Below are positions 10,623 through 60,472 of a stretch of 64,000 nt of DNA, in pieces (the stretch's first letter is position 1; each line of letters starts with the position of its first letter). The stretch comes from Pseudomonas quebecensis (GTDB lineage: Bacteria > Pseudomonadota > Gammaproteobacteria > Pseudomonadales > Pseudomonadaceae): assembly GCF_026410085.1 (NCBI RefSeq), contig NZ_CP112866.1, forward strand, positions 1,302,001-1,366,000. The letters are read 5' to 3'. Both the position numbers and the translations under genes were made by a program. The notes beneath the pieces are model-generated. The model was not told the origin of the DNA, searched no databases, and was given only the letters and a program-made list of their open reading frames with translations.

Positions 10623-10643
10623 AGACCACCGCAGGACCCACTG

Positions 10644-10671: not shown

Positions 10672-10776
10672 TTGAGACTGTTCTTTCAGTTAGTACTGGG
10701 GGAACAGTATGGATTGGCAATGCCGCAAACTAAGCGGTGCTGCGCCGTATGATCCAGCCCAGGCAATGACTGTCAA

Positions 10777-10804
10777 AAAGGTGGGAGGGGGCTTGCCCCC
10801 GATG
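10777..10804 (-). repeat. REP element, right half of a REPIN
   Basis: AAAAGGTGGGAGGGGGCTTG continuing to CCCCCGATG is the inverted partner of the REP at 10644-10671. Pairs like this are mobilised in trans by RAYT transposases. None is encoded in this window. Confidence 0.85.
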
Positions 10805-10823
10805 GTGTCAGTCCGGGCAACCG

Positions 10824-11372: not shown

Positions 11373-11412
11373 CGTCGAAGAGTCCTGGGTGCGGAAAACG
11401 GACTCGAAGTAT

Positions 11413-11446
11413 ACCTGCGGCCTCGCCGATTGGCGCGGCCGCAGGT
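11413..11446 (-). other. Long hairpin between anr and apt
   Basis: A perfect 10-base arm ACCTGCGGCC/GGCCGCAGGT encloses an inner CGCC-GATT-GGCG stem with one mismatch. It has no clear U-run on either strand, so it is either a weak terminator of anr or a structured leader of apt. Confidence 0.6.
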
Positions 11447-11453
11447 GTCTGCA

Positions 11454-12188
11454 TCAACCTTCCAGGGAGCCTCCGGCCAGCGCGCACAGCTGGATCGGGT
11501 CGAGGATGTGCACTTCCTTGCCTTCGGCGGCGAGCAATTCGTTCTGCTGGAAACGGGTGAATACGCGGGACACGGTTTCTACCGCCAGGCCCAGGTAGTT
11601 GCCGATTTCGTTACGCGACATGCTCAGGCGGAACTGGTTGGCCGAGAACCCACGGGCACGGAAACGGGCCGACAGGTTGACCAGGAACGTAGCGATGCGC
11701 TCGTCGGCGGTTTTTTTCGACAACAGCAGCATCATTTGTTGGTCGTCACGGATCTCGCGGCTCATCACGCGCATCAACTGGCGACGCAGTTGCGGCAATT
11801 GCAGAGCCAGCTCATCCAGGCGCTCAAAGGGGATTTCGCACACTGAGGTGGTCTCCAGCGCCTGGGCCGACACCGGATGAATCTCGGTGTCCATGCCCGA
11901 CAGCCCCACCAGTTCACTGGGCAGATGGAAGCCGGTGATCTGTTCCTCGCCGCCATCGCTCAGACTGAAAGTCTTCAACGCGCCGGAACGTACTGCATAG
12001 ACGGAATCGAACTTGTCACCCTGGCGAAACAGAAACTCGCCTTTTTTCAGCGGGCGACCGCGTTTAACGATGTCGTCCAGCGCATCCATGTCTTCCAGAT
12101 TCAGCGAAAGTGGCAGGCAGAGGGGCGCCAGGCTGCAATCCTTGCAATGGGCCTGGCTGTGAGCGCGCAGTTTGACTGGCTCAGACAT
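11454..12188 (-). CDS. anr: Anr, oxygen-sensing FNR-type transcriptional regulator
   Basis: 244 residues, CRP/FNR family. Four Cys for an oxygen-labile [4Fe-4S] cluster are present: Cys15, Cys18, Cys24 and Cys117. A cyclic-nucleotide-like beta barrel spans ~30-145, and the HTH at ~190-212 carries Glu204, Ser207 and Arg208, the residue set that reads the TTGAT half-site in FNR. In Pseudomonas, Anr switches on low-oxygen genes. Matching sites are found here in front of hemN, ccoG and ccoN2. Its neighbour hemN lies just upstream on the same strand, the known Pseudomonas arrangement. Confidence 0.97.
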
Positions 12189-45770: not shown

Positions 45771-46334
45771 TCAGTCGATGCGCTTGGCCGACTTGATCAC
45801 GACAGGGTCGATTGGCACGTTCTGCATGCCTTGCTTGGTGGTGGTCTGGGAGTTGACGATGATATCGACCACGTCCATGCCCTTGACCACTTTGGCGAAT
45901 ACCGCGTAGCCGGCATCGCGGCCGGGGTCGAGGAAGGCGTTGTCAGCCACGTTGATGAAAAATTGGCTGGTGGCCGAATCCGGGTTCGAGGTGCGCGCCA
46001 TCGACAGCGTGCCACGCACGTTGTGCAGGCCGTTGCTGGCTTCGTTCTTGATGGGGGCTTCGGTCGGTTTTTGCACCATCTGCGTAGTGAAACCGCCGCC
46101 CTGGACCATGAAACCCGGAATCACACGGTGGAAAATCGTGTTGGTGTAGAAGCCTTTGTCGACATAGGCCAGAAAGTTCTTGGTACTGATCGGCGCCTTG
46201 ACCGGGTCCAGTTCGATTTCAATCTGGCCATTGGTGGTGTCGAGCAGAACGTGCGGCGCCTTGGCCGGCTCTGCCGCCATCAGGTTGGCAGCGAACAAGG
46301 CGGAACCGGCGAAGAAGGCGATTTTTTTCAGCAT
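45771..46334 (-). CDS. Periplasmic cyclophilin-type peptidyl-prolyl isomerase
   Basis: 187 residues with a signal peptide ([20 protein letters not shown]) and a compact cyclophilin domain: '[16 protein letters not shown]' and '[20 protein letters not shown]' carry the catalytic Arg and Gln/Phe positions. Catalyses proline isomerisation during folding in the periplasm (PpiA-like). Its start overlaps the end of the upstream hydrolase gene by 7 bases. Confidence 0.93.
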
Positions 46335-47140
46335 GGGTCAGTGATCCTGGTAGTGGTGTCGACGGTCTTTAGAAAATCGAGCAGGGTCGTGTTAAAGGCG
46401 TCGGGTTGATCCAAAGGCGTGGCATGGCGGGAATCTTCGATGACCACCAGTCGCGCATCGGGCAGCAGTTTTACATAGATTTCTTTTTGCGCCACGGGGG
46501 TGTAGTCGTGGTCGGCGCTGATGACCAGGGTTGGACAGGCGATCCTGGAAAGTCGTTCCTGCACGCTCCAGCCCACAATCGCATCGAAGCTGGCGAGATA
46601 AGCACGTTTGTCGTTTGTTGCCCAGCGCTCGGCCATTTTGCGACGCAGATCGGCCTGCTGCGGTTTGGGAAACAACCGCTCGGCCAGGGCCTTGCCGATG
46701 CTGCTCAGGCTGAGCACGCGCGCCAGTGTCCAGCGCTTGGCCCATTGCCAATGGTCATTGACGCTGCGTACCTTGACCTCGGGCGCGCTGTTGACGATGC
46801 ACAGGCTGCGCACCAGGCCGGGCGCGTCCACCGCCAGCTGAAAGGCGATCATACCGCCCATGGACAGCCCGGCCACATGGGCCGGCGGCAGGTCGAGGTG
46901 GTCGATCAGCGCGATCAGATCCGCGCTGAAGCCCGGGATACTGTAACGCTCGCGCGGCTTGTCGGAGCGCCCATGGCCGCGTACATCCACCACGATCAGG
47001 CGGTAATGCCGGGACAGTACCGGCACCTGCAGCTCCCAATCCTGGCTGCTGGAACCCAGGCCGTGGATCAGGATCAGCGGAGTACCGTGGCCGTATTCCG
47101 TGTAGTGCAGGGTGCAGCCTTGATGGTCGAACCAGGCCAT
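46328..47140 (-). CDS. Alpha/beta hydrolase (PcaD/MhpC-like)
   Basis: 270 residues. '[18 protein letters not shown]' oxyanion region, '[17 protein letters not shown]' nucleophile Ser elbow, Asp in 'ISADHDYTP' and His in '[12 protein letters not shown]'. It starts at ATG 47140 with GGAG 8 bases upstream. The long open frame continuing to 48268 is an out-of-frame shadow of the LysR gene, not a fusion. It is probably co-transcribed with the PPIase gene downstream. The substrate is unknown. Confidence 0.9.
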
Positions 47141-47154
47141 GCACGAACTCCGTT

Positions 47155-48078
47155 TCAGGCTTGCCGAGGCGCGGCGAAAGGCGCGTCCAGCGGGGCGGTG
47201 TCGAAGGTGCGCAGCAATTCGACAAGGATCTGCGTGGCCGGGCCCAAGGGTTTGTCCTTGTTTGAGTACAGAAAGAACGTCGGGTGGCGGCTGCCGCCCT
47301 GTTCCAAGGGTAGCTGCTTGAGTACGCCCTCGGCGAGTTCGCGTTCGATCATGTGGCGTGGCAACCAGGCAAAACCCAGGCCGCTGCCCACAAAGGACGC
47401 CGCCGTGGCCAGGCTGCCGACGGTCCAGCGTTGTTCGGCGCCGAGCCAGCCCACATCTCGCGGTTGCTGGCGACCGGAGTCGCGGATCACCACTTGCATC
47501 TGGCTCTCCAGGTCCTGGAAGCTCAGCGAGCGGTTCATGCGATGCAGGGCATGCTCGGGGTGGGCCACGGCGACGAACTCCACATCGCTCATCTCGGTGC
47601 CCAGGTAGCCGGGGATACTGAACCCGCAAATCGCCAGGTCGGCCACGCCTTCGATCAGCAGCTCTTCGACACCGGACAACACCTCCTCGCGCAGCCGCAC
47701 ACGGCAACCCCGGCTTTGCGGCATAAATGCGCTCAAGGCGCGCACCAGCCGGGCGTTGGGGTAGGCGGCGTCCACCACCAGGCGCACTTCGGCTTCCCAA
47801 CCCTGCTCCATATGGTGGGCAAGGTCTTCCAGCTGGCTGGCGTTCTTCACCAGTTGCCGCGAGCGGCGCAACAGCACTTCGCCGGCATCGGTGAGCACCG
47901 CCTTGCGCCCGTCGATGCGCAGCAGCGGCACGCCGAGCTGGTCCTGCATGCGGGCCACGGTGTAGCTCACCGAAGACTGCGAACGGTGCAGCGCTTCGGC
48001 CGCCTGGGCGAAGCCGCCATGGTCGACCACGGCTTGCAGCGTGCGCCATTGATCGAGGGTAACGCGGGGCGCTTTCAA
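47155..48078 (-). CDS. LysR family transcriptional regulator
   Basis: 307 residues. HTH near the N-terminus (LDQWRTLQAVVDHGGFAQAA, 'HRSQSSVSYTVARMQDQLG') and effector domain from ~90. It is divergent from the small exported protein at 48128 with only ~50 bases between starts, and is followed closely by the hydrolase gene on the same strand. Either neighbour, or the azoreductase beyond, may be its target. Confidence 0.9.
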   Translation of the reverse strand: MKAPRVTLDQWRTLQAVVDHGGFAQAAEALHRSQSSVSYTVARMQDQLGVPLLRIDGRKAVLTDAGEVLLRRSRQLVKNASQLEDLAHHMEQGWEAEVRLVVDAAYPNARLVRALSAFMPQSRGCRVRLREEVLSGVEELLIEGVADLAICGFSIPGYLGTEMSDVEFVAVAHPEHALHRMNRSLSFQDLESQMQVVIRDSGRQQPRDVGWLGAEQRWTVGSLATAASFVGSGLGFAWLPRHMIERELAEGVLKQLPLEQGGSRHPTFFLYSNKDKPLGPATQILVELLRTFDTAPLDAPFAAPRQA

Positions 48079-48127
48079 GATAGGTTCCTCTTGTCCTAAG
48101 CTGGCGGTCCTTATTGGAGACTGCCGA

Positions 48128-48442
48128 ATGAGAAAATTCTGTTGTGTGTTGCTGGCGCTGTTGCCGATGAGTGCGTATGCCTACCCCATCGATGTGACCA
48201 AAAAGATCGAAGGCGTGAGCCTGGACTACACGGCGTCCGACGTGGACGATGACATCAGTTCGATTCAACTGAATAACTACGGCACCATTGACGCACAGTG
48301 TTCGGTAGTCTTCACCAACGGTCCGGAATCGCCCCGTCGACGTAATGTCTCGGTACCCGCCGGCAAAAGCACAAACACCACGGTCAAGTTCACCCGCTCC
48401 ATTATCAAGATGCGTATCGCTCTGGAGTGCGCCCCGAAATAG
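48128..48442 (+). CDS. Small exported protein of unknown function
   Basis: 104 residues with a signal peptide (MRKFCCVLLALLPMSAYA). The mature ~86 residues are beta-rich with two Cys (CSVVF and the C-terminal ECAPK) that could form a disulfide. I do not recognise a characterised family. GGAG lies 8 bases before the ATG. It is divergent from the LysR gene with a very short shared promoter region. Confidence 0.75.
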   Translation: MRKFCCVLLALLPMSAYAYPIDVTKKIEGVSLDYTASDVDDDISSIQLNNYGTIDAQCSVVFTNGPESPRRRNVSVPAGKSTNTTVKFTRSIIKMRIALECAPK

Positions 48443-48592
48443 CGCGCCGGTGGAGCGCTCTACAGGGATAGCCGGTTAATCAACAAATTTCTAGATGGGT
48501 TATAGCAGTTTTTTGCGCTTTTTAATCGAATCAGCCCTGGATAATCTTTTCTCCATCGACTTACAGCAGTTTCAGATGGAGCCTACAGAGCC

Positions 48593-49192
48593 ATGTCCAA
48601 CGTTCTGATTATTGAAAGCAGTGCACGTCAGCAGGATTCGATCTCCCGCCAGCTCACCCGGCAGTTCATCGGCCAATGGCGCGCCGCTCACCCGGCGGAC
48701 CGCATCAGCGTGCGCGACGTGGCCCTTAACCCGGTGCCGCACCTGGACGCGAATTTGCTCGGCGGCTGGATGAAGGCGGCGGAGCAGCGCAATGACGACG
48801 AACAGATCTCCCTCGACCGCTCCAACGAATTGACCGATGAACTGCTCGCCGCCGACGTGCTGGTGCTGGCGGCGCCGATGTACAACTTCGCCATCCCCAG
48901 CACGCTGAAAGCCTGGCTGGACCACGTGTTGCGTGCCGGTGTGACGTTCAAATACACCCCCACCGGGCCTCAGGGGCTGCTGACCGGCAAGCGCGCCATC
49001 GTGCTCACCGCTCGCGGCGGTATTCATACCGGCGCCAGCTCCGATCACCAGGAACCGTACCTGCGTCAGGTCATGGCCTTCATCGGGATTCACGACGTCA
49101 CCTTCATTCATGCCGAAGGGGTGAACCTGAGCGGTGACTTCCAGGAGAAGGGCATCAACCACGCCAAGGCGCTGATTGCCCAGGTGGCGTGA
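48593..49192 (+). CDS. azoR: FMN-dependent NADH-azoreductase
   Basis: 199 residues, flavodoxin-like fold. 'VLIIESSARQQDSISRQL' phosphate-binding start, 'LVLAAPMYNFAIPSTLKAWL' FMN loop and 'VLTARGGIHTG' are typical of AzoR/AcpD. Reduces azo dyes and quinones in two-electron steps; a detoxification role is usual. A strong terminator follows at 49299-49333. Confidence 0.94.
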   Translation: MSNVLIIESSARQQDSISRQLTRQFIGQWRAAHPADRISVRDVALNPVPHLDANLLGGWMKAAEQRNDDEQISLDRSNELTDELLAADVLVLAAPMYNFAIPSTLKAWLDHVLRAGVTFKYTPTGPQGLLTGKRAIVLTARGGIHTGASSDHQEPYLRQVMAFIGIHDVTFIHAEGVNLSGDFQEKGINHAKALIAQVA

Positions 49193-49298
49193 TCCTTTAA
49201 TCGCCACGTAATCGCCCGGTGTTTATATCGCTCCACGCCAACCCTTCAAGTACGCGTAACGAACCTCCCTTTGCACTTGTTGCTCCTGAGTGCTCCTG

Positions 49299-49333
49299 CC
49301 CGACTGCCGCTATAGCGAGGTCGGGTTTTTTTT
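49299..49333 (+). terminator. Rho-independent terminator after azoR
   Basis: The stem CCCGAC/GTCGGG holds an inner palindrome CGCTATAGCG and is followed by eight T. Confidence 0.88.
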
Positions 49334-49395
49334 GCCTCCAGTTTCGTCCCGCGACGAAAAGCTTTAATGTCCCGCCCATTCGAAACGAGGCGCGC

Positions 49396-50271
49396 ATGGG
49401 CTATCTACTGGTTGTCACCCTGATTCAGGCATTTTCCTTCAGCTTGATCGGCGAATACCTCGCCGGTCACGTCGACAGCTACTTCGCGGTGCTGGTGCGC
49501 GTGGTGCTGGCCGGGCTGGTATTTATCCCGCTGACGCGCTGGCGTTCGGTGGAGCCTGCGTTCATGCGCGGCATGCTGGTGATCGGCGCGCTGCAGTTCG
49601 GCGTGACCTATGTGTGCCTTTACCTGAGCTTTCGCGTGCTCACGGTGCCGGAGGTGCTGCTGTTCACCATCCTTACGCCGTTGCACGTGACCCTGATCGA
49701 GGACGCCCTGAATCGGCGTTTCAACTTCTGGGCGCTGCTGGCCGCGCTGGTAGCGGTGGCGGGCGCGGCGGTGATTCGCTTCGACCAGATCACCGCCCAC
49801 TTCCTGATGGGCTTTTTGCTGCTGCAACTGGCCAACTTCACCTATGCCGCCGGGCAGGTGATGTACAAGCACCTGGTGGCGCGCTACCCGAGCGACCTGC
49901 CGCACTATCGACGCTTCGGCTACTTCTACCTTGGCGCGTTGCTGGTGGTGTTGCCGGCGTTCCTGCTGTTCGGCAAGGCTGACTTCCTGCCGGAGGCGCC
50001 GCTGCAATGGGGCGTGCTGGTGTTCCTCGGCCTGGTCAGTACGGCGCTGGGCCTGTACTGGTGGAATAAAGGCGCGTGTCTGGTCAACGGTGGCACGCTG
50101 GCGGTGATGAACAACCTGCACGTACCGGTGGGCCTGCTGCTCAACCTGCTGATCTGGAACCAGCACGAGCCGCTGGGCCGCCTGGCCTTGGGTGGCCTGG
50201 TGATTCTGGCGGCGGTCTGGATAAGTCGATTGGGCGTAAAGCCCGCGCCTGGCGTACAGTCTGCGACGTGA
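49396..50271 (+). CDS. EamA/DMT family exporter
   Basis: 291 residues with ten helices in two repeats (YFAVLVRVVLAGLVFIPLTR; 'TLAVMNNLHVPVGLLLNLLI'). It resembles the CarD/YedA-like carboxylate or amino-acid exporter branch. ATG 49396 begins MGYLLVVTLIQAF; longer in-frame starts lack family sequence. It is followed after about 67 bases by an Lrp-type regulator on the same strand, a usual partnership for amino-acid exporters, and lies beside the putative biosynthetic operon. Confidence 0.9.
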   Translation: MGYLLVVTLIQAFSFSLIGEYLAGHVDSYFAVLVRVVLAGLVFIPLTRWRSVEPAFMRGMLVIGALQFGVTYVCLYLSFRVLTVPEVLLFTILTPLHVTLIEDALNRRFNFWALLAALVAVAGAAVIRFDQITAHFLMGFLLLQLANFTYAAGQVMYKHLVARYPSDLPHYRRFGYFYLGALLVVLPAFLLFGKADFLPEAPLQWGVLVFLGLVSTALGLYWWNKGACLVNGGTLAVMNNLHVPVGLLLNLLIWNQHEPLGRLALGGLVILAAVWISRLGVKPAPGVQSAT

Positions 50272-50338
50272 TGGGCCTTGGGCGGCGTGAGCGGCGATGA
50301 AAGTCTGCTATCGGAAAGAACGGTGTGGGGGCGGCAGA

Positions 50339-50755
50339 GTGGACAAGATTGATGAACTGATCATTGCGGCCTTGAAGGATGACTCCCGCGTCAGCCTGGC
50401 GCAATTGGCGCGGCAAGTTCACAAGTCTCGAACCGCAGTAGAGTCGCGCGTACAAAAGCTGATTGAAAAAGGCGTCATCCTGGGCTTTACCATCAACGTC
50501 GCGGAGGGCGATGGCACCTTGCAAGCGGCGTTTTTGATGCTGACGCTCAATGGCAGTCACTGTCACCTCGTGTATCCGATGCTTCAGCAGTTCAGCCAGG
50601 TGGTGCATGCCTACTCACTGTTTGGCGACGTGGACATGATGCTCGACGTTCGCTACAGAAGCTTTGAAGAACTGATGGTGTTCAAGGAAAGCCTGTTGAA
50701 GATCGAGCATGTGAAGGAAGTGGTGGTCAACCCTGTGCTGAAGGCCTGGCGTTAG
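50339..50755 (+). CDS. Lrp/AsnC family transcriptional regulator
   Basis: 138 residues from GTG 50339 (VDKIDELIIAALKDDSR), where the family's N-terminal HTH normally begins. ATG 50297 would add 14 residues that do not look family-like but cannot be excluded. HTH 'SLAQLARQVHKSRTAVESRV' and RAM ligand domain ('AFLMLTLNGSHCHLVYPML', 'DVDMMLDVRYRSFEEL'). Such regulators sense amino acids. It ends 24 bases from the end of the convergent B3/4 gene. Confidence 0.9.
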   Translation: MDKIDELIIAALKDDSRVSLAQLARQVHKSRTAVESRVQKLIEKGVILGFTINVAEGDGTLQAAFLMLTLNGSHCHLVYPMLQQFSQVVHAYSLFGDVDMMLDVRYRSFEELMVFKESLLKIEHVKEVVVNPVLKAWR

Positions 50756-50779
50756 GCCCAGGCCATGGCCGGCATGGCT

Positions 50780-51457
50780 TCACGCATGATCGCGAACGGT
50801 TTCAAGAAAATGATGACTCAGGTTCGGCATTTGCTGACGAAGGGTGTCCACGAGTTCTTCGATGACCGCCTGGTTGAATTGGAACGATGTGTCGTCATGT
50901 CCCAGGATCACCACCAGCAGCCTCGATGAGTCTTTCGTCAGCCGGAAGTCATGGGCATCGGCGTCCACCTTGCCGATGCTCGCCAACGGCACATCCCCGC
51001 AGGTATAGACGATGTCGCCGACAGGAATCGTGATGGGCTTCTTGGCGAACAGCGGGCGTAGCACCCTCGGTTTGTCCGAGCGCATCACATAGATGTCATC
51101 CTTCTGGTGATACGTGTGCACGCCGATGCTGACCCCATGCCGGATTGCGACCGCGTTATAGGCATCGACGATATTGTTGATGGGGTAAACGCCTTTGGCG
51201 ATGAAGCGTCGCAGCAGCTTCTCATTGGCGCTGACGGTATTTTCGTAGCCGAGTTTTTTGAGCTGCCTGGAAAACCCTTCGTAGACGACGTTCGAATCCA
51301 GCTCGTTAAGATGCGAGGCCACGTGGTTCAGGTTGCTCTGCAGTACCCCGACGAAGCTCCGATCATCCGAGACGGTGACGTCCTCGATAACGGCCGCGCA
51401 CGCATTGTTGATGCCCAGCTCGCAAGCTGACTTTTTGATAATCAAACGGCTTCTCAT
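50780..51457 (-). CDS. Free-standing B3/4 (PheRS editing-like) domain protein
   Basis: 225 residues. The central part, from GYENTVSANEKLLRRFIAKG through 'GVYPINNIVDAYNAVAIRHGVSIGVH', matches the B3/4 domain of phenylalanyl-tRNA synthetase beta subunits (COG3382 type), the domain that hydrolyses Tyr-tRNA(Phe). No synthetase domain is attached. Last gene of the five-gene operon, 4 bases after the ATP-grasp gene. By analogy with other stand-alone editing domains it could clear tRNA charged with a toxic amino acid made by the pathway; this is inference. Confidence 0.82.
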   Translation of the reverse strand: MRSRLIIKKSACELGINNACAAVIEDVTVSDDRSFVGVLQSNLNHVASHLNELDSNVVYEGFSRQLKKLGYENTVSANEKLLRRFIAKGVYPINNIVDAYNAVAIRHGVSIGVHTYHQKDDIYVMRSDKPRVLRPLFAKKPITIPVGDIVYTCGDVPLASIGKVDADAHDFRLTKDSSRLLVVILGHDDTSFQFNQAVIEELVDTLRQQMPNLSHHFLETVRDHA

Positions 51458-51461
51458 AACC

Positions 51462-52688
51462 TTAGGCCCACAGTTTTTTTCGCAGATTGGCGGTACTCAC
51501 GTCCAGTTGCTGCGCCGAGGGGCTTTGCAGCCAGAACAGCCCTGGACAGGTGGCGAAGTCGATAGTGACCGGGGTGGTATCGCCGGCGCGCATGAAATAC
51601 CGGTGCCCGCAGTAGGCTTCGTCCGCCTGGGCGCTTTGTAAGGCCTGGGGTGACGGCGGCTCGAAGGTTCGGCTTTCATCGGAGCAGAAGAAACCGATCC
51701 GGCCATGGCTGATCTGGCTGGCCGCAGCGGCCTGGGGGCGAGGGTGGCCGAGGTAGCTGTCGATCGACAGTGACAGCAAGTCGGGGAGATACACCTGCTG
51801 GAACAGCAGGGGCGCGATGCCGCCGTGCAAGCGACCGCCGGCCTCAATCATTACCGGCCCGGCGTCGGACCAAATGATCTCCATATGGATCGGCCCGACG
51901 CGTACGCCCAGGGCCGCCGCCGCCTGGCGGGCGTAATCGGTCAGCGGTTGCAGTTCGGGCGCCTGAGGGTCGAGGGTGTCGAGGCTTTCGTAGACAAACA
52001 TGCTGCCGTTCTTCTGGATCTTGGTGTACTTGCAGACGCTGGCGACGATGTAGGTGCTGCCGAAGGCGACCATATCCACCACGTACTCAGGCCCCGCTAT
52101 GAACGACTGCACGATAAACCCGAGATTGACTTCGCCGAGGTCGTTTTTCTGCTGCCAGGCGGCGTTTTTCAAGGCGGTTTCCACTTCGCGCTTGCCCTGG
52201 GCAAACACCACGCCTTCAGTGGCGGCCGAGTTCAGTGGCTTGACCACATAGGTGGCCGACTCGTCGAGTTTGGCCACCACCTCGCCGATGCGGCTCGGTG
52301 AGCTCAGCAGGTGCGAGGCGATGTGGGACAACTGGTGGTGTTTCAATGCCTGCTGCATGGAGAACTTGTTACGGCGCAGGTCGCTGGTGATGCGGCTGTT
52401 GCCGGGGATGTCGAGCAGCTCCGTCAGGTAGTCGGTGAGATAGATCGCGGTTTCGCAACCGGCGATCACGGCGCTCAGCGACAAGGTTTCCAGAGTGATC
52501 AACAGGCTTTCTTCCCAGTGATACACCTGATCAAAGTTGTCTGCGATCAAGTCTTGGGTGAAGTGTTCCGGCAAGTCACGGGTGGAGATCACGGCGATGC
52601 ACCGGATGCCCTGCGCGTTGAGCAGGGGGGCATACAGTTTGCCCGTGGAGAACGGGTCAACGATCAATACGGTTTTCACTACTGTCAC
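51462..52688 (-). CDS. ATP-grasp domain ligase
   Basis: 408 residues. N-terminal pre-ATP-grasp Rossmann part (KTVLIVDPFSTGKLYAPLL), ATP-binding 'ATYVVKPLNSAATEGV' and 'GFIVQSFIAGPEYVVDMVAF', and metal-binding 'GPIHMEIIWSDAGPVMIEAGGRLHGG'. These are features of carboxylate-amine ligases such as BacD-like L-amino-acid ligases, which join amino acids through acyl phosphates. GTG 52688 is the start, with AAGGA about 9 bases upstream. In the operon it would extend or couple the product of the oxidase. Confidence 0.9.
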   Translation of the reverse strand: MTVVKTVLIVDPFSTGKLYAPLLNAQGIRCIAVISTRDLPEHFTQDLIADNFDQVYHWEESLLITLETLSLSAVIAGCETAIYLTDYLTELLDIPGNSRITSDLRRNKFSMQQALKHHQLSHIASHLLSSPSRIGEVVAKLDESATYVVKPLNSAATEGVVFAQGKREVETALKNAAWQQKNDLGEVNLGFIVQSFIAGPEYVVDMVAFGSTYIVASVCKYTKIQKNGSMFVYESLDTLDPQAPELQPLTDYARQAAAALGVRVGPIHMEIIWSDAGPVMIEAGGRLHGGIAPLLFQQVYLPDLLSLSIDSYLGHPRPQAAAASQISHGRIGFFCSDESRTFEPPSPQALQSAQADEAYCGHRYFMRAGDTTPVTIDFATCPGLFWLQSPSAQQLDVSTANLRKKLWA

Positions 52689-52700
52689 GTCGTGTATTCC

Positions 52701-53891
52701 TTATTCCGTGGTGGCGGTGGGCGCGGGGGCCGGGGTCAGGTTCCACGCCAGTACGGCAGTGGCCAACAGGCCGGCGGAGACGATCATCAACAGGCGGGCG
52801 CCTTCGAGTCCTAGGAAGCCGGAGGTGGTGAAGAACGTCAGGATCATCGGCGCCGAGCCACTGACCAGCAGGTAGTAGAGCGAGCTTTTGGCCGCGATCA
52901 CGTCGGCTACCCTTGCGTTGGGCGCCGACTCGATCAAGGTTCTGCGCAATTGGATGCGCAGGCTGTTGATGCAAAAACCCAGCAGGAACGCCGCGGCCAT
53001 CATCACGTAGAGGTTGTGGAAGTAGACGATCGCCACGTCCGCCAGTATCACCAGCGAGATCGCGCCGTAGCGGTTGAGCTTGATGCGCGGCAACACCGCA
53101 GCGCTGAAGGCACCCAGGCCCGCCAGGCCGCTGGCGACCCCGAACAGCGTGGCATTCCACTCATTGAGTTTTTGAAAAACGATGGGCACCAGGCTGTTGA
53201 ACGCGCCGATATGGAAACCGATCATGCTCAACACGATGATCAGGATATAGAGGTTTCGCGGTAGCTCCAGTGGCCGCGCGGTGGAGGTTGCCGTGGCCTG
53301 TTCGGTGGCGTGTTCGTTGGGGCTGTCGGCTACCAGAAGGATGGCCGCGAGCGAGACAATCGCTGCCAGGCTGATGATCTGCAGCGTCTGGTTGACCGAA
53401 AACACATCCACAATCAACCCGCCCAGGAGCGCGCCGCCGAAGGCACCGATCTGTATGGAGGTTTGCATCAACCGCGCGCAGGTATCGCTGTCGGTGAGGC
53501 CGGCCAGCACCAGCTTGGTATTTTTCGATTCCAGTGTGCTGATGGTGAAGTAGTCGGTCACGCCCACTACGAACGCAATGGCCAGGAAGCCGATCGGTAG
53601 CAGGGCGGCCTCGGTAAACGACAAGCCCAGGACTGCCGCAAAGGCCACCAGGCGAATGTACAACAGCCGTTTCAGGCTCAGTTCAATGGTGAAGAACCGG
53701 CCGATGTACTGTTCGCACAGATAAGGCACGACGGTCGCCACGCACAAGGTGGCGCCGACCAGGAAGGTCGAACCGGTAGTCTCCAGGCCGAACCAGACCA
53801 TCGCGATGACAATCGCCATGTCGAGGCCGGTGAAGAGCGTCACGATTGAGTAGAACGCTGTCAGTGTCGATTTAGTCTTCATGAGCTTCAT
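52701..53891 (-). CDS. MFS transporter
   Basis: 396 residues with twelve predicted helices (for example LTAFYSIVTLFTGLDMAIVIAMV at the start and 'NLYILIIVLSMIGFHIGAF' after the central loop at ~195-225). Probable exporter of the operon's product. ATG 53891 overlaps the Rieske gene stop by 4 bases (ATGA). Confidence 0.9.
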   Translation of the reverse strand: MKLMKTKSTLTAFYSIVTLFTGLDMAIVIAMVWFGLETTGSTFLVGATLCVATVVPYLCEQYIGRFFTIELSLKRLLYIRLVAFAAVLGLSFTEAALLPIGFLAIAFVVGVTDYFTISTLESKNTKLVLAGLTDSDTCARLMQTSIQIGAFGGALLGGLIVDVFSVNQTLQIISLAAIVSLAAILLVADSPNEHATEQATATSTARPLELPRNLYILIIVLSMIGFHIGAFNSLVPIVFQKLNEWNATLFGVASGLAGLGAFSAAVLPRIKLNRYGAISLVILADVAIVYFHNLYVMMAAAFLLGFCINSLRIQLRRTLIESAPNARVADVIAAKSSLYYLLVSGSAPMILTFFTTSGFLGLEGARLLMIVSAGLLATAVLAWNLTPAPAPTATTE

Positions 53892-54205
53892 CCGTCGTAG
53901 CGGGAAATTTTAAGCAGCGGCACACAACGCTCTGTGTCGCCGACGACCGTGCTGATCCGGTTCCTGACACGCACGGTGGGCAGTGCGCTCTTTTCCAGGT
54001 TGCAGACCCTGTAGGCGTTGTCGTGCCAGGGACAGATCACACTTTGGCCGTCGCCTGTCACTTCGCCCATGTGCAGCGGGCCGCCACGGTGGGGGCACTT
54101 GGTGGGCAGCAATTGCGTCGAATACGCGTGACGCTTGAGAAAGTAGGTGCGTTCCTCCACGGCCACATAGTTGGCGTGGGAGATATTCAGGCTGATGGCT
54201 TTCAT
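53888..54205 (-). CDS. Small Rieske [2Fe-2S] protein
   Basis: 105 residues. Both cluster-ligand boxes are intact: Cys37-x-His39 (CPHRGGPLH) and Cys58-x-x-His61 (CPWHDNAYR). There are no other domains, so it is a Rieske-type ferredoxin. ATG 54205 is chosen over an in-frame GTG at 54217, with GAGTGG about 8 bases upstream. It lies directly after the diiron-cupin gene, so it probably supplies electrons to that enzyme. No dedicated ferredoxin reductase is nearby. Confidence 0.88.
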   Translation of the reverse strand: MKAISLNISHANYVAVEERTYFLKRHAYSTQLLPTKCPHRGGPLHMGEVTGDGQSVICPWHDNAYRVCNLEKSALPTVRVRNRISTVVGDTERCVPLLKISRYDG

Positions 54206-54217
54206 GGGGTTGCCCAC

Positions 54218-55597
54218 TCAAATGGCGGTTACGGTGTAGGTGCAGGAGGGACTGCAGATGCGCGTGCCATGCAGCATTCCCTTGGGAATCACAACGCCTT
54301 CGCCGGCTTTGAGGCGTACCGTCAGTTCGGGGCTGGCGACAAACTCCAGCTCGCCTGATTCGACCCAGAACAGTTCGTCATTGGGGTGGGTATGCAGCAC
54401 CGACAGTTCGAGTTCAGTCTCGGTAATCCTCAGGTCCACGGGTTTTTGGCCCTGCAGCGCCGCTGCCTGTGCGCGATGCTGATCCAACTCGTCATGCCAT
54501 TGGATATGGGCATACAGCTCTTCGTCGGCGATGTCCTGAAGCAGCCTGAACTCTTCGAAGCCGCGTATAAGGTCGGGAATGATCTGGGGGCCGAACTGCT
54601 TGATCATGGGCATGATCAAGCGCTGCAGCGCCATTCTTCCGTGGTGTACATCGATGTGGGCATGTTCGTCGAAATAGTCCGTGGAGACGGCGCCGTTGAA
54701 GATGGTCTTGATTGCGCGTGACTGGTGCTTGGTCGTCAGTGCCAACGTGGCTTCGGTGTAGTACATCGCGCCGATATAGCGGAACAGTTCGCCGTGGTTG
54801 GCCGATACGTAGTGGAAGTAGTTGGTGAGCGACAGCGACGCCGGCGTATAGAACTGCCAGTAATGGTGTACGTGATGGGACATGCCCATGTCCTGGAGCA
54901 TGTCTTCGAAAATGGTGCTGTGCTTCTTTTTGTCGACGCCGTAGCCATACTCGTCGATCAGGATCTTGAACAATTCGCTGGTGTACACACCGCTGTTGCC
55001 CAGTACGTTGCGGGCCATCGCCGATGCTTCACTGAGAAAGTCTCCCGCACATTGCGTCATGAAAAACCTGGCGGCACGTTCCGGCTGGCGACTGGTGGTT
55101 AACACTTCATGGAGTTTGGACTCGGAGTGAGCGACGTCGTCCAATACTTTATCGGTGTGGGCGATAAAGGACTCCAGGCACCAAGGGCCGTTGATATGCA
55201 CTTCTTCCTTGAGCCAGTTGTATAGATAGTGTTCCAACAAGGGCCGGATCTTTTTACCACTGGCGGCGTGAACGGGATCGTAGAAACTTTTAAAAGCCTT
55301 TAAATCCAGTTCCAATGGCGCCTTGGGTAAAAAGACCAGATCCTGTTCGTAGATATTCAACAATAACCGCTGTGCCAAGAGATGCTGACTGTTTGAAAGT
55401 TGATCGCTGGTCAGGCAGGTGGTAATGATTGAATCGGTGACGTCCTGTGGCCGCGACGGTCGCTGATAAGGGCTTTGGGTATAAAAGTCTTGGGGTTGAG
55501 CAAAGGCGGCGGCACCACAATAGTGGGTCAGGGCTTCGGCATTCGAACTTAATACAAAATCTGCTGCATTAACGGAAAGCTGAGTTGTCCATAACAT
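54218..55597 (-). CDS. SznF-like haem-oxygenase-like diiron oxidase fused to a cupin
   Basis: 459 residues. Residues ~1-150 are a helical N-terminal part. Residues ~165-330 form a haem-oxygenase-like diiron oxidase (HDO) domain with candidate ligands Glu190, Glu216, His226, Glu282 and the H-x3-D-x2-H set His312, Asp316, His319. Residues ~385-459 are a cupin with His402, His404 and His443. The order HDO then cupin and the size (SznF 471) match SznF, which oxidises and rearranges N-methyl-arginine to an N-nitrosourea. From memory, SznF's ligands fall at positions shifted by only one (HDO) or five (cupin). It is the first gene of the operon; AAAAGG precedes the ATG. The substrate is unknown, and no arginine methyltransferase is nearby. 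Confidence 0.85.
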   Translation of the reverse strand: MLWTTQLSVNAADFVLSSNAEALTHYCGAAAFAQPQDFYTQSPYQRPSRPQDVTDSIITTCLTSDQLSNSQHLLAQRLLLNIYEQDLVFLPKAPLELDLKAFKSFYDPVHAASGKKIRPLLEHYLYNWLKEEVHINGPWCLESFIAHTDKVLDDVAHSESKLHEVLTTSRQPERAARFFMTQCAGDFLSEASAMARNVLGNSGVYTSELFKILIDEYGYGVDKKKHSTIFEDMLQDMGMSHHVHHYWQFYTPASLSLTNYFHYVSANHGELFRYIGAMYYTEATLALTTKHQSRAIKTIFNGAVSTDYFDEHAHIDVHHGRMALQRLIMPMIKQFGPQIIPDLIRGFEEFRLLQDIADEELYAHIQWHDELDQHRAQAAALQGQKPVDLRITETELELSVLHTHPNDELFWVESGELEFVASPELTVRLKAGEGVVIPKGMLHGTRICSPSCTYTVTAI

Positions 55598-55685
55598 GGC
55601 GGGGGCCTTTTGCTGGCGTGGTTCGATGGCCCAGATGCTAAGCAGTTGGTTTTTTTAAAAACAGATTAGAAACAGTGCGCGCACG

Positions 55686-55700
55686 TAGTGAAATTCACTA
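55686..55700. promoter_or_regulatory. Palindrome upstream of the SznF-like operon (candidate operator)
   Basis: TAGTGAA-A-TTCACTA is a perfect 15-base palindrome about 90 bases before the first gene, within an AT-rich stretch that also has GTTTTT-TT-AAAAAC at 55649-55662. It is a plausible regulator site. The nearby Lrp-type protein is a candidate but unproven binder. Confidence 0.5.
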
Positions 55701-55850
55701 AACGCGTAGGAAGAATTTTCTTTGTGGGCTGTGCCGGTTGAAGAATGGGCCGTGGCGGCTACACATAGTGGCGGGCTTTTTTACGGCGGGTGAGTCAGCA
55801 GTGGCAGACCTTGGAGCGAGGCGCTTGCCAGTACCTCGCCGGTATCGCTG

Positions 55851-57140
55851 TCAATGCTCGGAGGATTGCGAGGCGTGGGTATCGCGTGCCAAGGTCAGTA
55901 TTGCGGTGCGCAAGTCGGTGCCGCTGGGTTGCTGATACAGGTTCAATCCGAATTCCGGCAACACTGCCAGCAGATAGTCAAAAATATCCCCCTGGATGCG
56001 CTCGTAGTCCGCCCACACGGTGGTGCGGGTGAAACAGTAGATCTCGAGCGGCACGCCCTCGGCGGTGGTTTGCATCTGGCGGACCATGCACGTCATGTTG
56101 GGCTGGATGTCCGGATGACTTTTCAGATAGGCCAGCGCGTAGGCGCGGAAGGTGCCCAGGTTGGTCATGCGCCGGCGGTTGGTCGACAGTTGCGCACTGT
56201 GGCCCTGGGCTTCGTTCCACGCCTTGAGTTCGGCCTGTTTGCGGCTGATGTAATCGGTGAGCAGGTGCACCTGGGTCATGCGCACTTCTTCATCGTCACG
56301 CAGGAAGCGCACACCGCTGGCGTCGATGAACAGGCTGCGTTTGATGCGACGCCCGCCGGAAACCTGCATGCCGCGCCAGTTCTTGAACGACTCCGACATC
56401 AGGCGCCAGGTCGGGATGGAGACAATGGTTTTATCGAAGTTCTGCACTTTCACCGTGTGCAGGGTGATGTCGACCACATCGCCGTCGGCACCGACCTGAG
56501 GCATTTCGATCCAGTCGCCGACCCGCAGCATGTCGTTGCTGGTCAGCTGCACGCTGGCGACGAACGACAGCAACGTGTCCTTGTAGACCAACAGGATCAC
56601 CGCCGACATCGCACCCAGGCCGGATAGCAGCAACAACGGCGAACGGTCGATCAGGGTGGCGACGATGATGATCGCGCCGAACACAAACAGCACCATCTTC
56701 GCCAATTGCACATAGCCCTTGATCGAGCGGGTGCGGGCATGTTCGGTGCGGGCATAGATGTCCAGCAGGGCGTTGAGCAGGGCGCTCATGGCCAGCACCA
56801 GGAACAGGATGGTGAACGCCAGGGCGACGTTGCCGATGAACAGGGTGGCGGTCTTGCTCAGGTCGGGCACCAGGTACAGGCCGAACTGGATCACCAGTGA
56901 CGGGGTCAGTTGCGCCAGGCGGTGGAAGACTTTGTTGTGGCGCAAGTCGTTGAGCCAGTGCAGGGCCGGTTGCCGGCCGAGCAATTTGACCGCGTGCAGG
57001 ATCAGGTAGCGCGCCACCCGACCCAGTACCAGCGCCACCACCAGCAATACCAGCAGGCCCAGGCTCGCGTGCAACAGCGGGTGTTGATCCAGTGCGCCCC
57101 AGAGGTCTTGGACGTTACGCCAAAGCTGTTTGATATCCAT
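55851..57140 (-). CDS. MscS family mechanosensitive ion channel (YbdG-like)
   Basis: 429 residues. Five hydrophobic helices (LLHASLGLLVLLVVALVLG onward), the pore helix region 'LLSGLGAMSAVILLVYKDTL', and MscS beta domain 'NDMLRVGDWIEMPQVGADGDV'. The large C-terminal domain and size match the YbdG/MscM-type branch. Opens under membrane tension to protect against hypo-osmotic shock. ATG 57140 (MDIKQLW) is chosen over in-frame upstream codons. Confidence 0.92.
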   Translation of the reverse strand: MDIKQLWRNVQDLWGALDQHPLLHASLGLLVLLVVALVLGRVARYLILHAVKLLGRQPALHWLNDLRHNKVFHRLAQLTPSLVIQFGLYLVPDLSKTATLFIGNVALAFTILFLVLAMSALLNALLDIYARTEHARTRSIKGYVQLAKMVLFVFGAIIIVATLIDRSPLLLLSGLGAMSAVILLVYKDTLLSFVASVQLTSNDMLRVGDWIEMPQVGADGDVVDITLHTVKVQNFDKTIVSIPTWRLMSESFKNWRGMQVSGGRRIKRSLFIDASGVRFLRDDEEVRMTQVHLLTDYISRKQAELKAWNEAQGHSAQLSTNRRRMTNLGTFRAYALAYLKSHPDIQPNMTCMVRQMQTTAEGVPLEIYCFTRTTVWADYERIQGDIFDYLLAVLPEFGLNLYQQPSGTDLRTAILTLARDTHASQSSEH

Positions 57141-57333
57141 GGATGAAGCGGTTCCTCGGTAAGACAGGTCGGGGGCGATTAGAGCATCTGAGTGCGACAA
57201 AGTTGATGTCATTGACACAATCACGCACAAAAAAACGCCTGATTGGCACCGCTCGCGTAAAGAAACTCGGTTTGGACGCCCGAAACCGTTACCCTATGCA
57301 GCTGATATTTTGCATTTCTTCGAGGTAGCACCC

Positions 57334-58680
57334 GTGTTTTCCCAATTCGCCCTGCACGAACGCCTGCTCAAAGCCGTGGCCGAGCTTAAATTTGTCGAGC
57401 CTACGCCAGTGCAGGCCGCGGCCATTCCGCTCGCGCTTGAAGGGCGTGACCTGCGGGTGACGGCGCAAACCGGCAGCGGCAAGACCGCCGCGTTCGTCCT
57501 GCCGGTCCTGAATCGTTTGATCGGCCCGGCCAAGGTCCGCGTCAGCATCAAGACCCTGATCCTGCTGCCGACCCGCGAGTTGGCCCAGCAAACCCTGAAA
57601 GAGGTCGAGCGCTTCTCGCAGTTCACCTTCATCAAGTCCGGCATCATCACCGGTGGCGAAGACTTCAAGGTCCAGGCCGCCATGCTGCGTAAAGTGCCGG
57701 ACATTCTGATCGGCACGCCAGGGCGCATGATCGAGCAACTGAACGCCGGCAACCTGGACCTCAAGGAAGTCGAAGTGCTGGTGCTCGACGAAGCCGACCG
57801 CATGCTTGATATGGGCTTTGCCGACGATGTGCAGCGTTTGGTGGGCGAGTGCGTCAACCGTCAGCAGACCATGCTGTTCTCCGCCACCACCGGCGGCTCG
57901 ACCCTGCGCGACATGGTCGCCAAGGTGCTGAACAACCCGGAGCACCTGCAGGTCAACAACGTCAGCGACCTCAATGCGACCACCCGCCAGCAGATCGTCA
58001 CCGCCGACCACAACGTGCACAAAGAGCAGATCCTCAACTGGCTGCTGGCCAACGAGACGTATCAGAAAGCCATTGTGTTCACCAACACTCGCGCCGCCGC
58101 CGACCGCATCTACGGCCGTCTGGTCGCTCAGGAATACAAGGCGTTCGTGCTGCACGGCGAGAAAGACCAGAAGGATCGCAAGCTCGCCATCGACCGCCTC
58201 AAGGCCGGCGGTGTAAAGATCCTGGTGGCCACCGACGTCGCCGCCCGTGGCCTGGACGTGGATGGCCTGGACCTGGTGATCAACTTCGACATGCCGCGCA
58301 GCGGCGACGAATACGTGCACCGCATCGGTCGCACCGGGCGAGCCGGTAACGATGGCCTGGCGATCTCCCTGATCTGCCACGGCGACTGGAACCTGATGTC
58401 GAGCATCGAGCGCTACCTGAAGCAGTCGTTCGAGCGCCGCACCATCAAGGAAGTCAAAGGCACCTACACCGGGCCGAAAAAGGTCAAGGCGTCGGGCAAG
58501 GCCGTCGGCGTGAAGAAGAAAAAGACCGACGCCAAGGGAGAAAAGAAGAAAGCCGGCGCGAAGTCGCCGACCAAGCGCAAGATCGCCAACCGCCCGAAGA
58601 CCGACAACCTGTCGTTGGTAAGCAAGGACGGCATGGCCCCGCTCAAGCGCCGCAAGCCGCAAGTGCCGGCCGCTGAATAA
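57334..58680 (+). CDS. DEAD-box RNA helicase
   Basis: 448 residues with Q motif (EPTPVQ), Walker A AQTGSGKT (44-51), PTRELA, DEAD in 'VLVLDEADRMLDMGF', SAT and 'HRIGRTGRAG'. The C-terminal ~90 residues are Lys-rich and low in complexity, a likely RNA-binding tail. SrmB-like; a role in ribosome assembly or cold growth is the usual one. The start is GTG 57334, with GAGGT 7 bases upstream, rather than ATG 57310. Confidence 0.94.
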   Translation: MFSQFALHERLLKAVAELKFVEPTPVQAAAIPLALEGRDLRVTAQTGSGKTAAFVLPVLNRLIGPAKVRVSIKTLILLPTRELAQQTLKEVERFSQFTFIKSGIITGGEDFKVQAAMLRKVPDILIGTPGRMIEQLNAGNLDLKEVEVLVLDEADRMLDMGFADDVQRLVGECVNRQQTMLFSATTGGSTLRDMVAKVLNNPEHLQVNNVSDLNATTRQQIVTADHNVHKEQILNWLLANETYQKAIVFTNTRAAADRIYGRLVAQEYKAFVLHGEKDQKDRKLAIDRLKAGGVKILVATDVAARGLDVDGLDLVINFDMPRSGDEYVHRIGRTGRAGNDGLAISLICHGDWNLMSSIERYLKQSFERRTIKEVKGTYTGPKKVKASGKAVGVKKKKTDAKGEKKKAGAKSPTKRKIANRPKTDNLSLVSKDGMAPLKRRKPQVPAAE

Positions 58681-58694
58681 GCCTGAGGCAATAT

Positions 58695-58723
58695 AAAAAA
58701 ACCGGACGATGTCCGGTTTTTTT
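58695..58723. terminator. Bidirectional terminator
   Basis: A-run, ACCGGAC-GAT-GTCCGGT stem and T-run lie between the convergent helicase (plus) and small exported protein (minus). Confidence 0.92.
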
Positions 58724-58729
58724 ATAGGC

Positions 58730-59005
58730 TCAGTTTTTGGCCTTGGCGGCAGCCTCTTTCAACTCTTTGAGGCGCGCGTCGATCAACTGGCATTTGTCGG
58801 GAAACTCCGCGCTTTCGGTGTCCAGGTCCATTTTCTGCAATTGCTGGTTCATCTCCTTGGCTTTGGCCGGGTTCTGTTCGGTGAGCTGGGTGACTTGCCT
58901 GGCCAGTTCCTCGCGCTTGGCGGTGGCTTCTTCCGGAGTACAGGCCCAGGCGGGCAGGGCGGTGAGCAGGGCGGCAGCGACAGCCAGCTTCATCAGGGTT
59001 TTCAT
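58730..59005 (-). CDS. Small exported helical protein
   Basis: 91 residues. Signal peptide (MKTLMKLAVAAALLTALPAWA) and a ~70-residue mature part that is Lys/Glu/Gln-rich and probably all helical, with two Cys (ACTPEE at the mature N-terminus and DKCQL). Conserved-hypothetical in appearance; no function assigned. GGAGG precedes the ATG. Confidence 0.75.
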   Translation of the reverse strand: MKTLMKLAVAAALLTALPAWACTPEEATAKREELARQVTQLTEQNPAKAKEMNQQLQKMDLDTESAEFPDKCQLIDARLKELKEAAAKAKN

Positions 59006-59159
59006 GATCGACCTCCTTGGCGTTAGTAGTCAGTTGAGGGGGCGAACGTCTGGAAAGTTCAGAGAAATACCGCCCGTGCATTCGGCTGAACGGCCGCTGA
59101 CGTCACAGGTCACACCTGCTGACGGGCTACTTTTCCTCACGCCCGCAGGAGGAATCAGG

Positions 59160-59561
59160 ATGACGACTTACAATTGGGATTTGATCGAACGTTTGCTGCA
59201 TGAAGTGCAGAACGGCGAGGGTAACTTTGCCCCGCGCAAGTATGCGGAGCAGGAAGCCGCCGATAAGGCCACGGCCGGCGAATCCATCGGTAATCTGGAT
59301 GCACTGAAAAAAAACGCCGCCGATTATGAGGCGCTGCTGCTCAAGCGCGGCTTTATCCAACCGCGCCCGGAAGAAGAGGGCGGTAACGGTGAAAATTTCA
59401 TCTTGACCCCGCGGGGTTCGAGTTTGCTGGCGCTGATCGACAGCTCCATTCCCGGCGATGCCCGTTCGCGTCAGATCCTGGACGAACAGGAAGACGCGTT
59501 GGACGAAGCGACCTTTGAGCGTGTGGCCTGCGAAGCGGCGAATGCGGGCGGCGCGATCTAA
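59160..59561 (+). CDS. Putative regulator, DUF2513-like winged-helix protein
   Basis: 133 residues starting MTTYNWDLIERLLHEVQNGE, resembling the first helix of DUF2513/transcriptional-regulator-like proteins. 'ALLLKRGFIQPR' and 'ENFILTPRGSSLLALID' look like the recognition and wing parts of a winged helix. The C-terminus is acidic. AGGAGGAATCAGG precedes ATG 59160. The family assignment is tentative. Confidence 0.7.
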   Translation: MTTYNWDLIERLLHEVQNGEGNFAPRKYAEQEAADKATAGESIGNLDALKKNAADYEALLLKRGFIQPRPEEEGGNGENFILTPRGSSLLALIDSSIPGDARSRQILDEQEDALDEATFERVACEAANAGGAI

Positions 59562-59605
59562 GGTCTGTACGACGCTGTCGTGGCGGGGGGGGGCACCCCG
59601 CCCCG

Positions 59606-60472
59606 TTAGCGCTCAGTGGCCTTCAGGCATTTGAGGGCTTTGAAGTCGCTGCGCACCCCGTCGATTTTCTGAGTCAGTTTCAGCCGCTGTTGCGCAGTGC
59701 TGTCCGCCATCAGGTCGATAATCAGGCTGCGCGCCTGCGCTTCCGTCTGCGCGTAGGCCGCTCGGTACTGCGGGGTCCACAGGCTTTCCCGGTCCACCAG
59801 CAGCTGCTGCATTTTTTGTGGGAAATCGGCGTTACGGCGTTGCTGCACCGCGTCGATAAACTGCGCCTGCCAATGGGCGCGGTTGCCGATCCACTGCTCA
59901 TTCTGCTGGCCCAACGCTACCGACCAGGCCATGACCCTCGCTTGCTGGCTGGCGCTGAGCGGGCCCATCCAACTGTCCAGGCGCTTGCGCATGCGCTCGG
60001 CGCGTTCCTTTATCTGTTGCTCCAGTGGCGGCTTGAGGTACTCGTCCTGGCGTTTGCGCAGGTCTTTGGCCAGCGCGTCGTTCATCGCGTTGACCTGCTC
60101 ATCGTCCAATCCCTTCAGCAGCTCGATAGCCGAGGGCGTGATTTCGCGGGCGACCTCGGCGATCGCTCGCTTGGCCTCTGCCGTACGGGCCTGAAGTTCG
60201 ACGTCGGTGACTTGGTTGCTGTCGACCATCTGTTGCAGGCGGTCGAGCCAGTCCAGATAACCCGGCAATTGGGTGGTGCAATGCCAGGCCAGGTGTTCCT
60301 TGAGTCTGTCGTTGAACCAGCTTTTCTGCCCGGCATTCATGTCCAGATAGTCGTTGAGGGTCCAGGGAATGATCACGTCCAGGTTGCGATAGGCCAGGCC
60401 CACGCGATTGCAGCCGGCGAGCAGCAGACTCAGGGCCAGCAGTGCCACCGTTAATTTGAGCCGACGCAGCAT
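59606..60472 (-). CDS. DUF6279 family lipoprotein
   Basis: 288 residues with a lipoprotein signal ending LLLAGC (Cys21), so membrane-anchored by lipid. 'YRNLDVIIPWTLNDYLDMN' and the long Gln/Arg-rich helical body are features of DUF6279. Function unknown. It stands alone, with about 65 bases to the next gene. Confidence 0.85.
   Translation of the reverse strand: MLRRLKLTVALLALSLLLAGCNRVGLAYRNLDVIIPWTLNDYLDMNAGQKSWFNDRLKEHLAWHCTTQLPGYLDWLDRLQQMVDSNQVTDVELQARTAEAKRAIAEVAREITPSAIELLKGLDDEQVNAMNDALAKDLRKRQDEYLKPPLEQQIKERAERMRKRLDSWMGPLSASQQARVMAWSVALGQQNEQWIGNRAHWQAQFIDAVQQRRNADFPQKMQQLLVDRESLWTPQYRAAYAQTEAQARSLIIDLMADSTAQQRLKLTQKIDGVRSDFKALKCLKATER

Follow-up and report, generated by a model that had tools for sequence, protein, structure and literature searches.

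The window, the whole 64,000-nucleotide stretch of DNA analyzed here from the soil bacterium Pseudomonas quebecensis (contig NZ_CP112866.1), contains a 459-residue open reading frame at positions 54218..55597 of the minus strand, exactly where a first-pass annotation had placed it. This gene encodes an SznF-family HDO-cupin enzyme, referred to as P0001, and heads a five-gene minus-strand operon that also encodes a Rieske protein, an MFS protein, an ATP-grasp ligase and a B3/4 protein. The genes are tightly packed: neighbors overlap or are separated by no more than 12 bases. The Rieske [2Fe-2S] protein (53888..54217, minus; 109 residues, GTG start) contains CPH and CPWH motifs (PF00355, E 2.5e-6) and is the probable electron donor for P0001. 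Its gene overlaps by 4 bases with that of the 396-residue MFS transporter (52701..53891, minus; MFS_1, E 6.4e-11), a probable exporter. The 408-residue ATP-grasp protein (51462..52688, minus; GTG start) is a ligase of the amino-acid-ligase kind based on NCBIfam and PDB comparisons. Its best NCBIfam match is the hypothetical-protein model PRK07206.1 (E 1.7e-72) and the second is dapdiamide A synthase DdaF (E 6.6e-40), both below cut-off; the nearest PDB entry is the L-amino acid ligase 30vh (E 2.6e-34). The last gene encodes a standalone B3/4 protein of 225 residues (50780..51457, minus) with a CtdA-like fold in its predicted model. A 152-residue AsnC/Lrp-type regulator (50297..50755, plus; Pfam HTH_24, HTH_AsnC-type and AsnC_trans_reg) is encoded convergently with the operon.

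Two further open reading frames could be mistaken for operon genes. The frame at 55854-56627 (plus) lies opposite an MscS-like gene and matches no Pfam family, and that at 50141-50608 (minus) is without a match and antisense to the AsnC/Lrp gene; we rejected both as long antisense artefacts of high-GC DNA. A riboswitch near the operon was also rejected, because positions 46000-60000 gave no Rfam match at the gathering score. The GC content of the operon set is 0.575, compared with 0.609 for the window, and P. viridiflava (L009) carries the same gene set in a different neighborhood. Based on these two observations, the gene set probably moved as one unit.

P0001 has an HDO domain (Haem_oxygenas_2, E 2.5e-30; residues 178-349, 54551..55066, minus) followed by C-terminal cupin strands (Cupin_2, E 6.4e-8; residues ~389-458, 54224..54433, minus, delimited by secondary structure and alignment). 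This is the domain order of SznF/StzF, the streptozotocin enzyme from Streptomyces achromogenes, as the first-pass annotation had proposed. A phmmer comparison aligned residues 22-457 of P0001 with residues 20-462 of the SznF chain (PDB 6m9r; E 2.9e-103, 436 residues). The two proteins are 41% identical over 421 residues, and the predicted P0001 model matches SznF across 434 residues with the three-domain fold present. In a 64-row alignment, the HDO residues E190, E216, H226, E282, H312, D316 and H319 fall on E189, E215, H225, E281, H311, D315 and H318 of SznF, and the cupin residues H402, H404, H443 and Y454 fall on H407, H409, H448 and Y459. The complete metal-ligand sets, the one-residue HDO offset and the shared 39-residue spacing of the cupin triad, all put forward in the first-pass annotation, are thereby borne out. 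The review literature names E215, H225, E281, H311, D315, H318, the three cupin histidines and Tyr459 of SznF, and describes a 3H/4C diiron site with one further glutamate ligand that is given without a position number. All seven HDO ligands of P0001, its three cupin histidines and its catalytic tyrosine align one-to-one with those of SznF. We take E189 to be the further glutamate of the SznF site. Membership of P0001 in the SznF family is nearly certain.

We then placed P0001 in a family tree of 64 hand-chosen rows: P0001 itself, 31 among 120 matches listed (567 found), 28 of the 105 sequences of a second search, and Pantoea, Methylobacterium, Azospirillum and SznF sequences chosen independently of the searches. 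The tree divides into halves of 31 and 33 rows, and the branch between them has support of 100/99. Gene context is known for a few of these rows. Those with a known methyltransferase (SznF from the literature, Pantoea, Methylobacterium and the Pseudomonas enzyme P0122) all lie in one half, termed methyl-type here, and those known to lack one, including P0001, all lie in the half opposite SznF, termed arginine-type. The tree positions of two rows, P0043 and P0148, were set before we looked at their gene contexts, which then agreed with the division in both cases; the L086 locus carries P0043 itself, and the L087 locus carries a 94% homolog of P0148. Each search was seeded on one side, and almost every row of a half derives from the corresponding search. 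Sampling therefore accounts for part of the clean separation, and the closest cross-half pairs reach an alignment score of 134. A quick tree with a graminine-type outgroup, which omitted 15 of the 64 rows, added 15 graminine-type rows and has a very long outgroup branch, recovered the methyl side as one clade (SH-aLRT 99). The arginine side was not strictly one clade, because P0113 fell outside it. Rooted in this way, the tree implies that the methyl-type enzymes would be the derived ones.

The two halves also differ in signature residues, which are described here as fixed among the sampled rows, where intermediates may be missing. Position 410 is Cys in 31/31 rows of the SznF half and Phe, Ile or Leu in 33/33 rows of the P0001 half, and position 445 is Ala in 31/31 versus Ser or Thr in 33/33. 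Position 289 is likewise Cys in every row of the SznF half, compared with Thr, Asn or Ser in 32/33 of the P0001 half, and position 258 is Asn in 30/31 compared with Ile, Thr, Val or Ser in 33/33. At position 440, Asn predominates on the SznF side (27/31) and Gly on the P0001 side (22/33). The P0001 half further shares D52 (33/33), Q292 (32/33), F350 (33/33) and P438 (31/33). In P0001 itself, the subfamily residues F410, P438, G440 and T445 lie within the cupin strands (54224..54433, minus). Positions 410 and 445 should face the cupin metal, judging from strand alternation counted from H402/H404/E408 and from H443, as they lie two residues past the cupin glutamate (E408) and the third metal histidine (H443), respectively.

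We asked whether gene neighborhoods follow the same division. The set comprised 34 loci with 5 to 10 kb of flank on each side: 32 from a 37-locus set (neighbor genes matched at E 1e-6), plus L086 and L087 (from a set matched at E 1e-4). The five loci dropped were L022 (graminine-type), L023 (a partial Rhizobium match), L060 and L061 (mgo/pvf-like) and L064 (a short HDO protein), and short matching loci (L017, L024-L049 and later ones) were left out of the count. A methyltransferase gene was found in 4 of the 34 loci, and each of the four has an Ada homolog no more than 10 kb away. The other 30 loci have no methyltransferase gene and gave no Ada, AlkA or AlkB match (0/30). The B3/4 gene shows the reverse distribution, with 0/4 methyltransferase loci versus 28/30 methyltransferase-less loci. 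Counted by lineage, in our own grouping, methyltransferase and Ada occur together in 4/4 versus 0/5, an exact chance of 1 in 126.

The methyl-type clusters have related gene orders. The Pantoea plasmid carries Ada, SznF, Rieske, methyltransferase, MFS and ATP-grasp genes, and L087 carries the same series with a hydrolase gene between MFS and ATP-grasp. The Methylobacterium plasmid has methyltransferase, SznF, Rieske and ATP-grasp genes, with three repair genes (AlkB-like, Ada and AlkA) 6 to 9 kb upstream, beyond other intervening genes. The cluster of Pseudomonas G250 (L059, 5651-17598) starts with AlkB-like, AlkA, Ada, SznF, Rieske, methyltransferase, MFS, hydrolase and ATP-grasp genes, after which come a hydrolase and a ferredoxin-reductase-like gene. 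Three of the methyltransferases were scanned for PRMT_C; those of L059 and Pantoea scored above the cut-off and that of Methylobacterium just below it. The L087 methyltransferase is 52% identical to the Pantoea enzyme. Methyl-side SznF homologs are also among the matches listed for P. syringae, P. salomonii, P. oryzihabitans, Chania and Gibbsiella. Among the dropped loci, L064 (Pseudomonas G171) encodes a short HDO protein (open frame of 286 residues, 27-28% identical to P0001 over part of its length) near a methyltransferase-like gene product that is 28% identical to the Pantoea enzyme, and represents a different HDO system. On the Rhizobium leguminosarum plasmid (L023), an unannotated partial SznF-like match at 8001-9405 is followed by a Rieske gene and is possibly a decayed copy.

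The clusters without a methyltransferase gene comprise those of the window's type, the Gloeothece and Azospirillum plasmids, the 53% Pseudomonas loci L057 and L058, and L086. The sequence records of the Gloeothece and Azospirillum plasmid clusters contain no B3/4 gene, and the Azospirillum cluster has no ATP-grasp neighbor; both points count against the main reading of the operon given below. The Azospirillum cluster, on the conjugative plasmid p5 of Azospirillum argentinense (L019), consists of Lrp, SznF-like, Rieske and amino acid permease genes with no adjoining ATP-grasp gene, and lies near a type I-E CRISPR-Cas operon. L086 has a second L-amino-acid-ligase-like ATP-grasp gene (10294-11601) directly upstream of its SznF-like gene, which suggests a longer peptide in that genus. 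The P. quebecensis cassette contains no SznE-type methyltransferase and has no alkylation-repair gene nearby, and a search of the whole genome with the Pantoea SznE-like protein gave one weak partial match (E 7.6e-5, residues 15-95). The first-pass annotation had noted the lack of a gene for making N-methyl-arginine and raised the possibility of a different substrate. The first point stands and makes the second likely. Among the sampled sequences, absence of the methyltransferase coincides with one half of the family, which has a distinctive pocket signature and set of partner genes. P0001 belongs to a distinct, probably arginine-acting SznF subfamily.

The arginine-type cassette is well conserved within Pseudomonas. 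All six genes, the operon plus AsnC/Lrp, co-occur by homology in 27/27 Pseudomonas loci of this type, and dN/dS values for the five operon genes range from 0.047 to 0.175 against three relatives. The eleven ligand and catalytic residues are intact in 27 of 28 arginine-type loci (27 from Pseudomonas and one from another genus); P. frederiksbergensis SI8 (L014) has Lys at the E282 ligand position in an otherwise intact cassette, reflecting either lost activity or a sequencing error. In Pseudomonas sp. W4I3 (L012), two separate reading frames share the ATP-grasp match, perhaps because the gene is damaged or was mis-sequenced; the Rieske match in L056 covers 71%. Of the named genomes found, P. lurida 114A4 is nearest, with 98-100% identity over the tested proteins. 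SznF-like matches occur in 26/398 genomes of a Pseudomonas sample, including our own: by identity, 23 are arginine-type (at least 53%, own included), one is methyl-type (G250) and two are mgo/pvf-like. Broader samples gave 3/398 for Pseudomonadota (all Pseudomonas, own included), 3/369 for Gammaproteobacteria (our own genome plus two short, weak matches) and 5/390 for Pseudomonadales (own included, two in new genera). Among relatives of G250, 10/144 genomes match, G250 included. We rejected an MgoB/PvfB-like origin for P0001, as the HDO proteins of L060 and L061 are of a different type. Those loci encode a 416-residue HDO protein followed by genes for 435, ~1180 and ~300 residues, a series that we take to be an mgo/pvf-like set.

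The predicted model of the B3/4 protein has a standalone B3/4 fold, and its closest solved structure is CtdA, a canavanyl-tRNA(Arg) deacylase. Sequence identity to CtdA is 14-15%, and the sequence profile matches PheRS-beta (E 7.2e-5) more strongly than two CtdA entries (E 0.014 and 0.06). Searching the entire genomes of two methyl-type strains for this B3/4 subfamily found no match. CtdA is described as a canavanine-response gene product encoded beside canavanine degradation genes in a pseudomonad, and the lowered pKa of the guanidine group has been suggested to distinguish canavanine from arginine (PMC10018355). The CtdA gene of Pseudomonas canavaninivorans adjoins a degradation pathway, whereas the B3/4 gene lies in a putative biosynthetic operon. 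We propose that the B3/4 protein, given its modeled fold, may provide self-protection by tRNA(Arg) editing. N-hydroxyguanidines are likewise less basic. Graminine is not guanidinium-like, so the targets of an editor would be hydroxyarginine intermediates and not graminine itself. The combination of missing methyltransferase and DNA-repair genes with an arginine-tRNA-proofreader-like gene suggests that the product is a false arginine and not a DNA-damaging agent.

The graminine-type homologs (GrbD, ChmM and the tistrellabactin enzyme) provide a second point of comparison, since they share the cupin His triad and Tyr with P0001, together with D52, P438, G440 and Ser/Thr445. Among 120 matches listed (265 found), 41 rows are presumably graminine-type, based on homology to the gene of a tistrellabactin producer (L022; PMC10391617). 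All 41 have D52, V410, P438, G440 and S445, and they have lost most HDO ligands, whereas the HDO site of P0001 is intact. P0001 has the same residues at 52, 438 and 440, Thr rather than Ser at 445 and Phe rather than Val at 410; positions 406, 410 and 456 differ between P0001 and the graminine-type proteins. The graminine precursor is reported to be unmethylated L-arginine, with an N-N bond joining N-delta and N-omega (PMC9679993), and ChmN is reported to supply dihydroxyarginine (PMC10849742). The residues shared with graminine-type cupins point to unmethylated arginine as the precursor for P0001 as well, although, as possible ancestral traits, they do not necessarily determine the product. 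Published graminine-type homologs are accompanied by NRPS genes and a heme YqcI/YcgG N-oxygenase (PMC10849742). By contrast, the P0001 cluster encodes an ATP-grasp ligase, and we rejected a graminine-type route in the host because its genome has no PF08892 match; a control search matched 2/14 named genomes.

We consider it somewhat probable that the operon hydroxylates free L-arginine, rearranges it to an N-N amino acid, ligates and exports the product, and edits it out of tRNA(Arg). The HDO diiron site, supplied with electrons by the Rieske protein, would carry out two O2-dependent hydroxylations of the L-arginine guanidine, at N-delta and N-omega, and the mononuclear-iron cupin would catalyze an oxidative rearrangement to an N-N-bonded amino acid. 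A methyl-free N-nitrosourea should be unstable. Because it should decompose, a graminine-like N-delta to N-omega diazeniumdiolate would be the favored cupin product; we regard the choice as about even, with a graminine-like product from unmethylated arginine no less plausible than an N-nitrosourea. The ATP-grasp ligase would then join the N-N amino acid, or arginine before oxidation, to another amino acid. The MFS protein would export the peptide, the B3/4 protein would clear N-oxidized arginine from tRNA(Arg) as CtdA does with canavanine, and the AsnC/Lrp protein would regulate the gene set.

Other readings of the operon are less probable. The enzyme could be a hydroxylase only, with the HDO domain producing hydroxy- or dihydroxyarginine for incorporation into a peptide, a vestigial or minor cupin and no N-N bond. 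A CtdA-like editor would fit hydroxyarginine best, but all 33 tree rows of the P0001 half and all 28 loci retain the proton-transfer tyrosine together with the three cupin histidines, and we think this reading unlikely. We give a similarly low weight to the N-oxidation of another guanidine or amine, such as homoarginine, agmatine or an arginine-containing peptide, in an otherwise unchanged pathway. The signature positions are unlike those of SznF, and the mangotoxin HDO enzyme is reported to act on arginine inside a ligase-made tripeptide (PMC13185094). However, a tRNA(Arg)-editing partner would be needless if ArgRS could not charge the substrate. It is also conceivable that the set oxidizes, conjugates and exports an environmental arginine analog such as canavanine, with the B3/4 protein safeguarding translation, as the canavanine-response role of CtdA beside degradation genes might suggest (PMC10018355). 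The lack of a guanidine riboswitch within 46000-60000 speaks against such detoxification, as do relatives with the same core genes that carry alkylation self-protection, as expected of producers, and we regard it as quite improbable. Least likely of all is a streptozotocin-type pathway to a methyl-N-nitrosourea using N-methyl-arginine from a methyltransferase encoded elsewhere: identity to SznF matches that of the methyl-type P0122 (41.6% over 433 residues), but the genome has just the weak partial SznE-like match, the relatives' loci retrieved lack nearby repair genes, and P0001 lies in the other half of the tree.

The proposed arginine pathway also resembles the mangotoxin mbo system, in which MboA (HDO), MboB (reductase) and the ATP-grasp proteins MboC/D follow the same logic of an HDO enzyme, a redox partner and a ligase acting on arginine. 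The two differ in that MboA forms an alkyne and is partnered with a flavin-Fe2S2 reductase, and the passages that describe MboA mention no cupin domain (PMC13185094). Clusters combining HDO and ATP-grasp genes form a published search space of at least 25 types (PMC13185094), and the P0001 cluster may be among them. SznF homologs in diverse bacteria have likewise been published as 426 sequences in several clusters, one of them szn-type (PMC10849742/PMC11177257). When we applied a threshold of the published size to 105 sequences, approximated as an alignment score, both halves merged, so methyltransferase-less clusters may lie unseen inside the published szn-type cluster. A literature search, with subscription sources largely outside its range, found no account of the division between methyl and arginine types and no SznF cluster described as containing a CtdA-like gene.

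New here are the operon context of P0001 and this division, which provides a testable tie between pathway chemistry and self-protection. As a more tentative proposal, possible rather than probable, we suggest that a single arginine-type SznF enzyme makes an N-N-bonded amino acid from free L-arginine without a methyltransferase, heme oxygenase or NRPS, that its product enters a ligase-made peptide acting as a Trojan-horse arginine antimetabolite or metal binder, and that the producer survives by tRNA(Arg) editing. Self-protection genes would then mirror mode of action, with DNA-alkylation repair beside methyl-type SznF and tRNA editing beside the arginine type. The division makes testable both the choice of the cupin between N-nitrosourea and diazeniumdiolate and the toxicity of each product. 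A CtdA-like protein encoded within the operon would represent a form of self-immunity new to N-N bond pathways.
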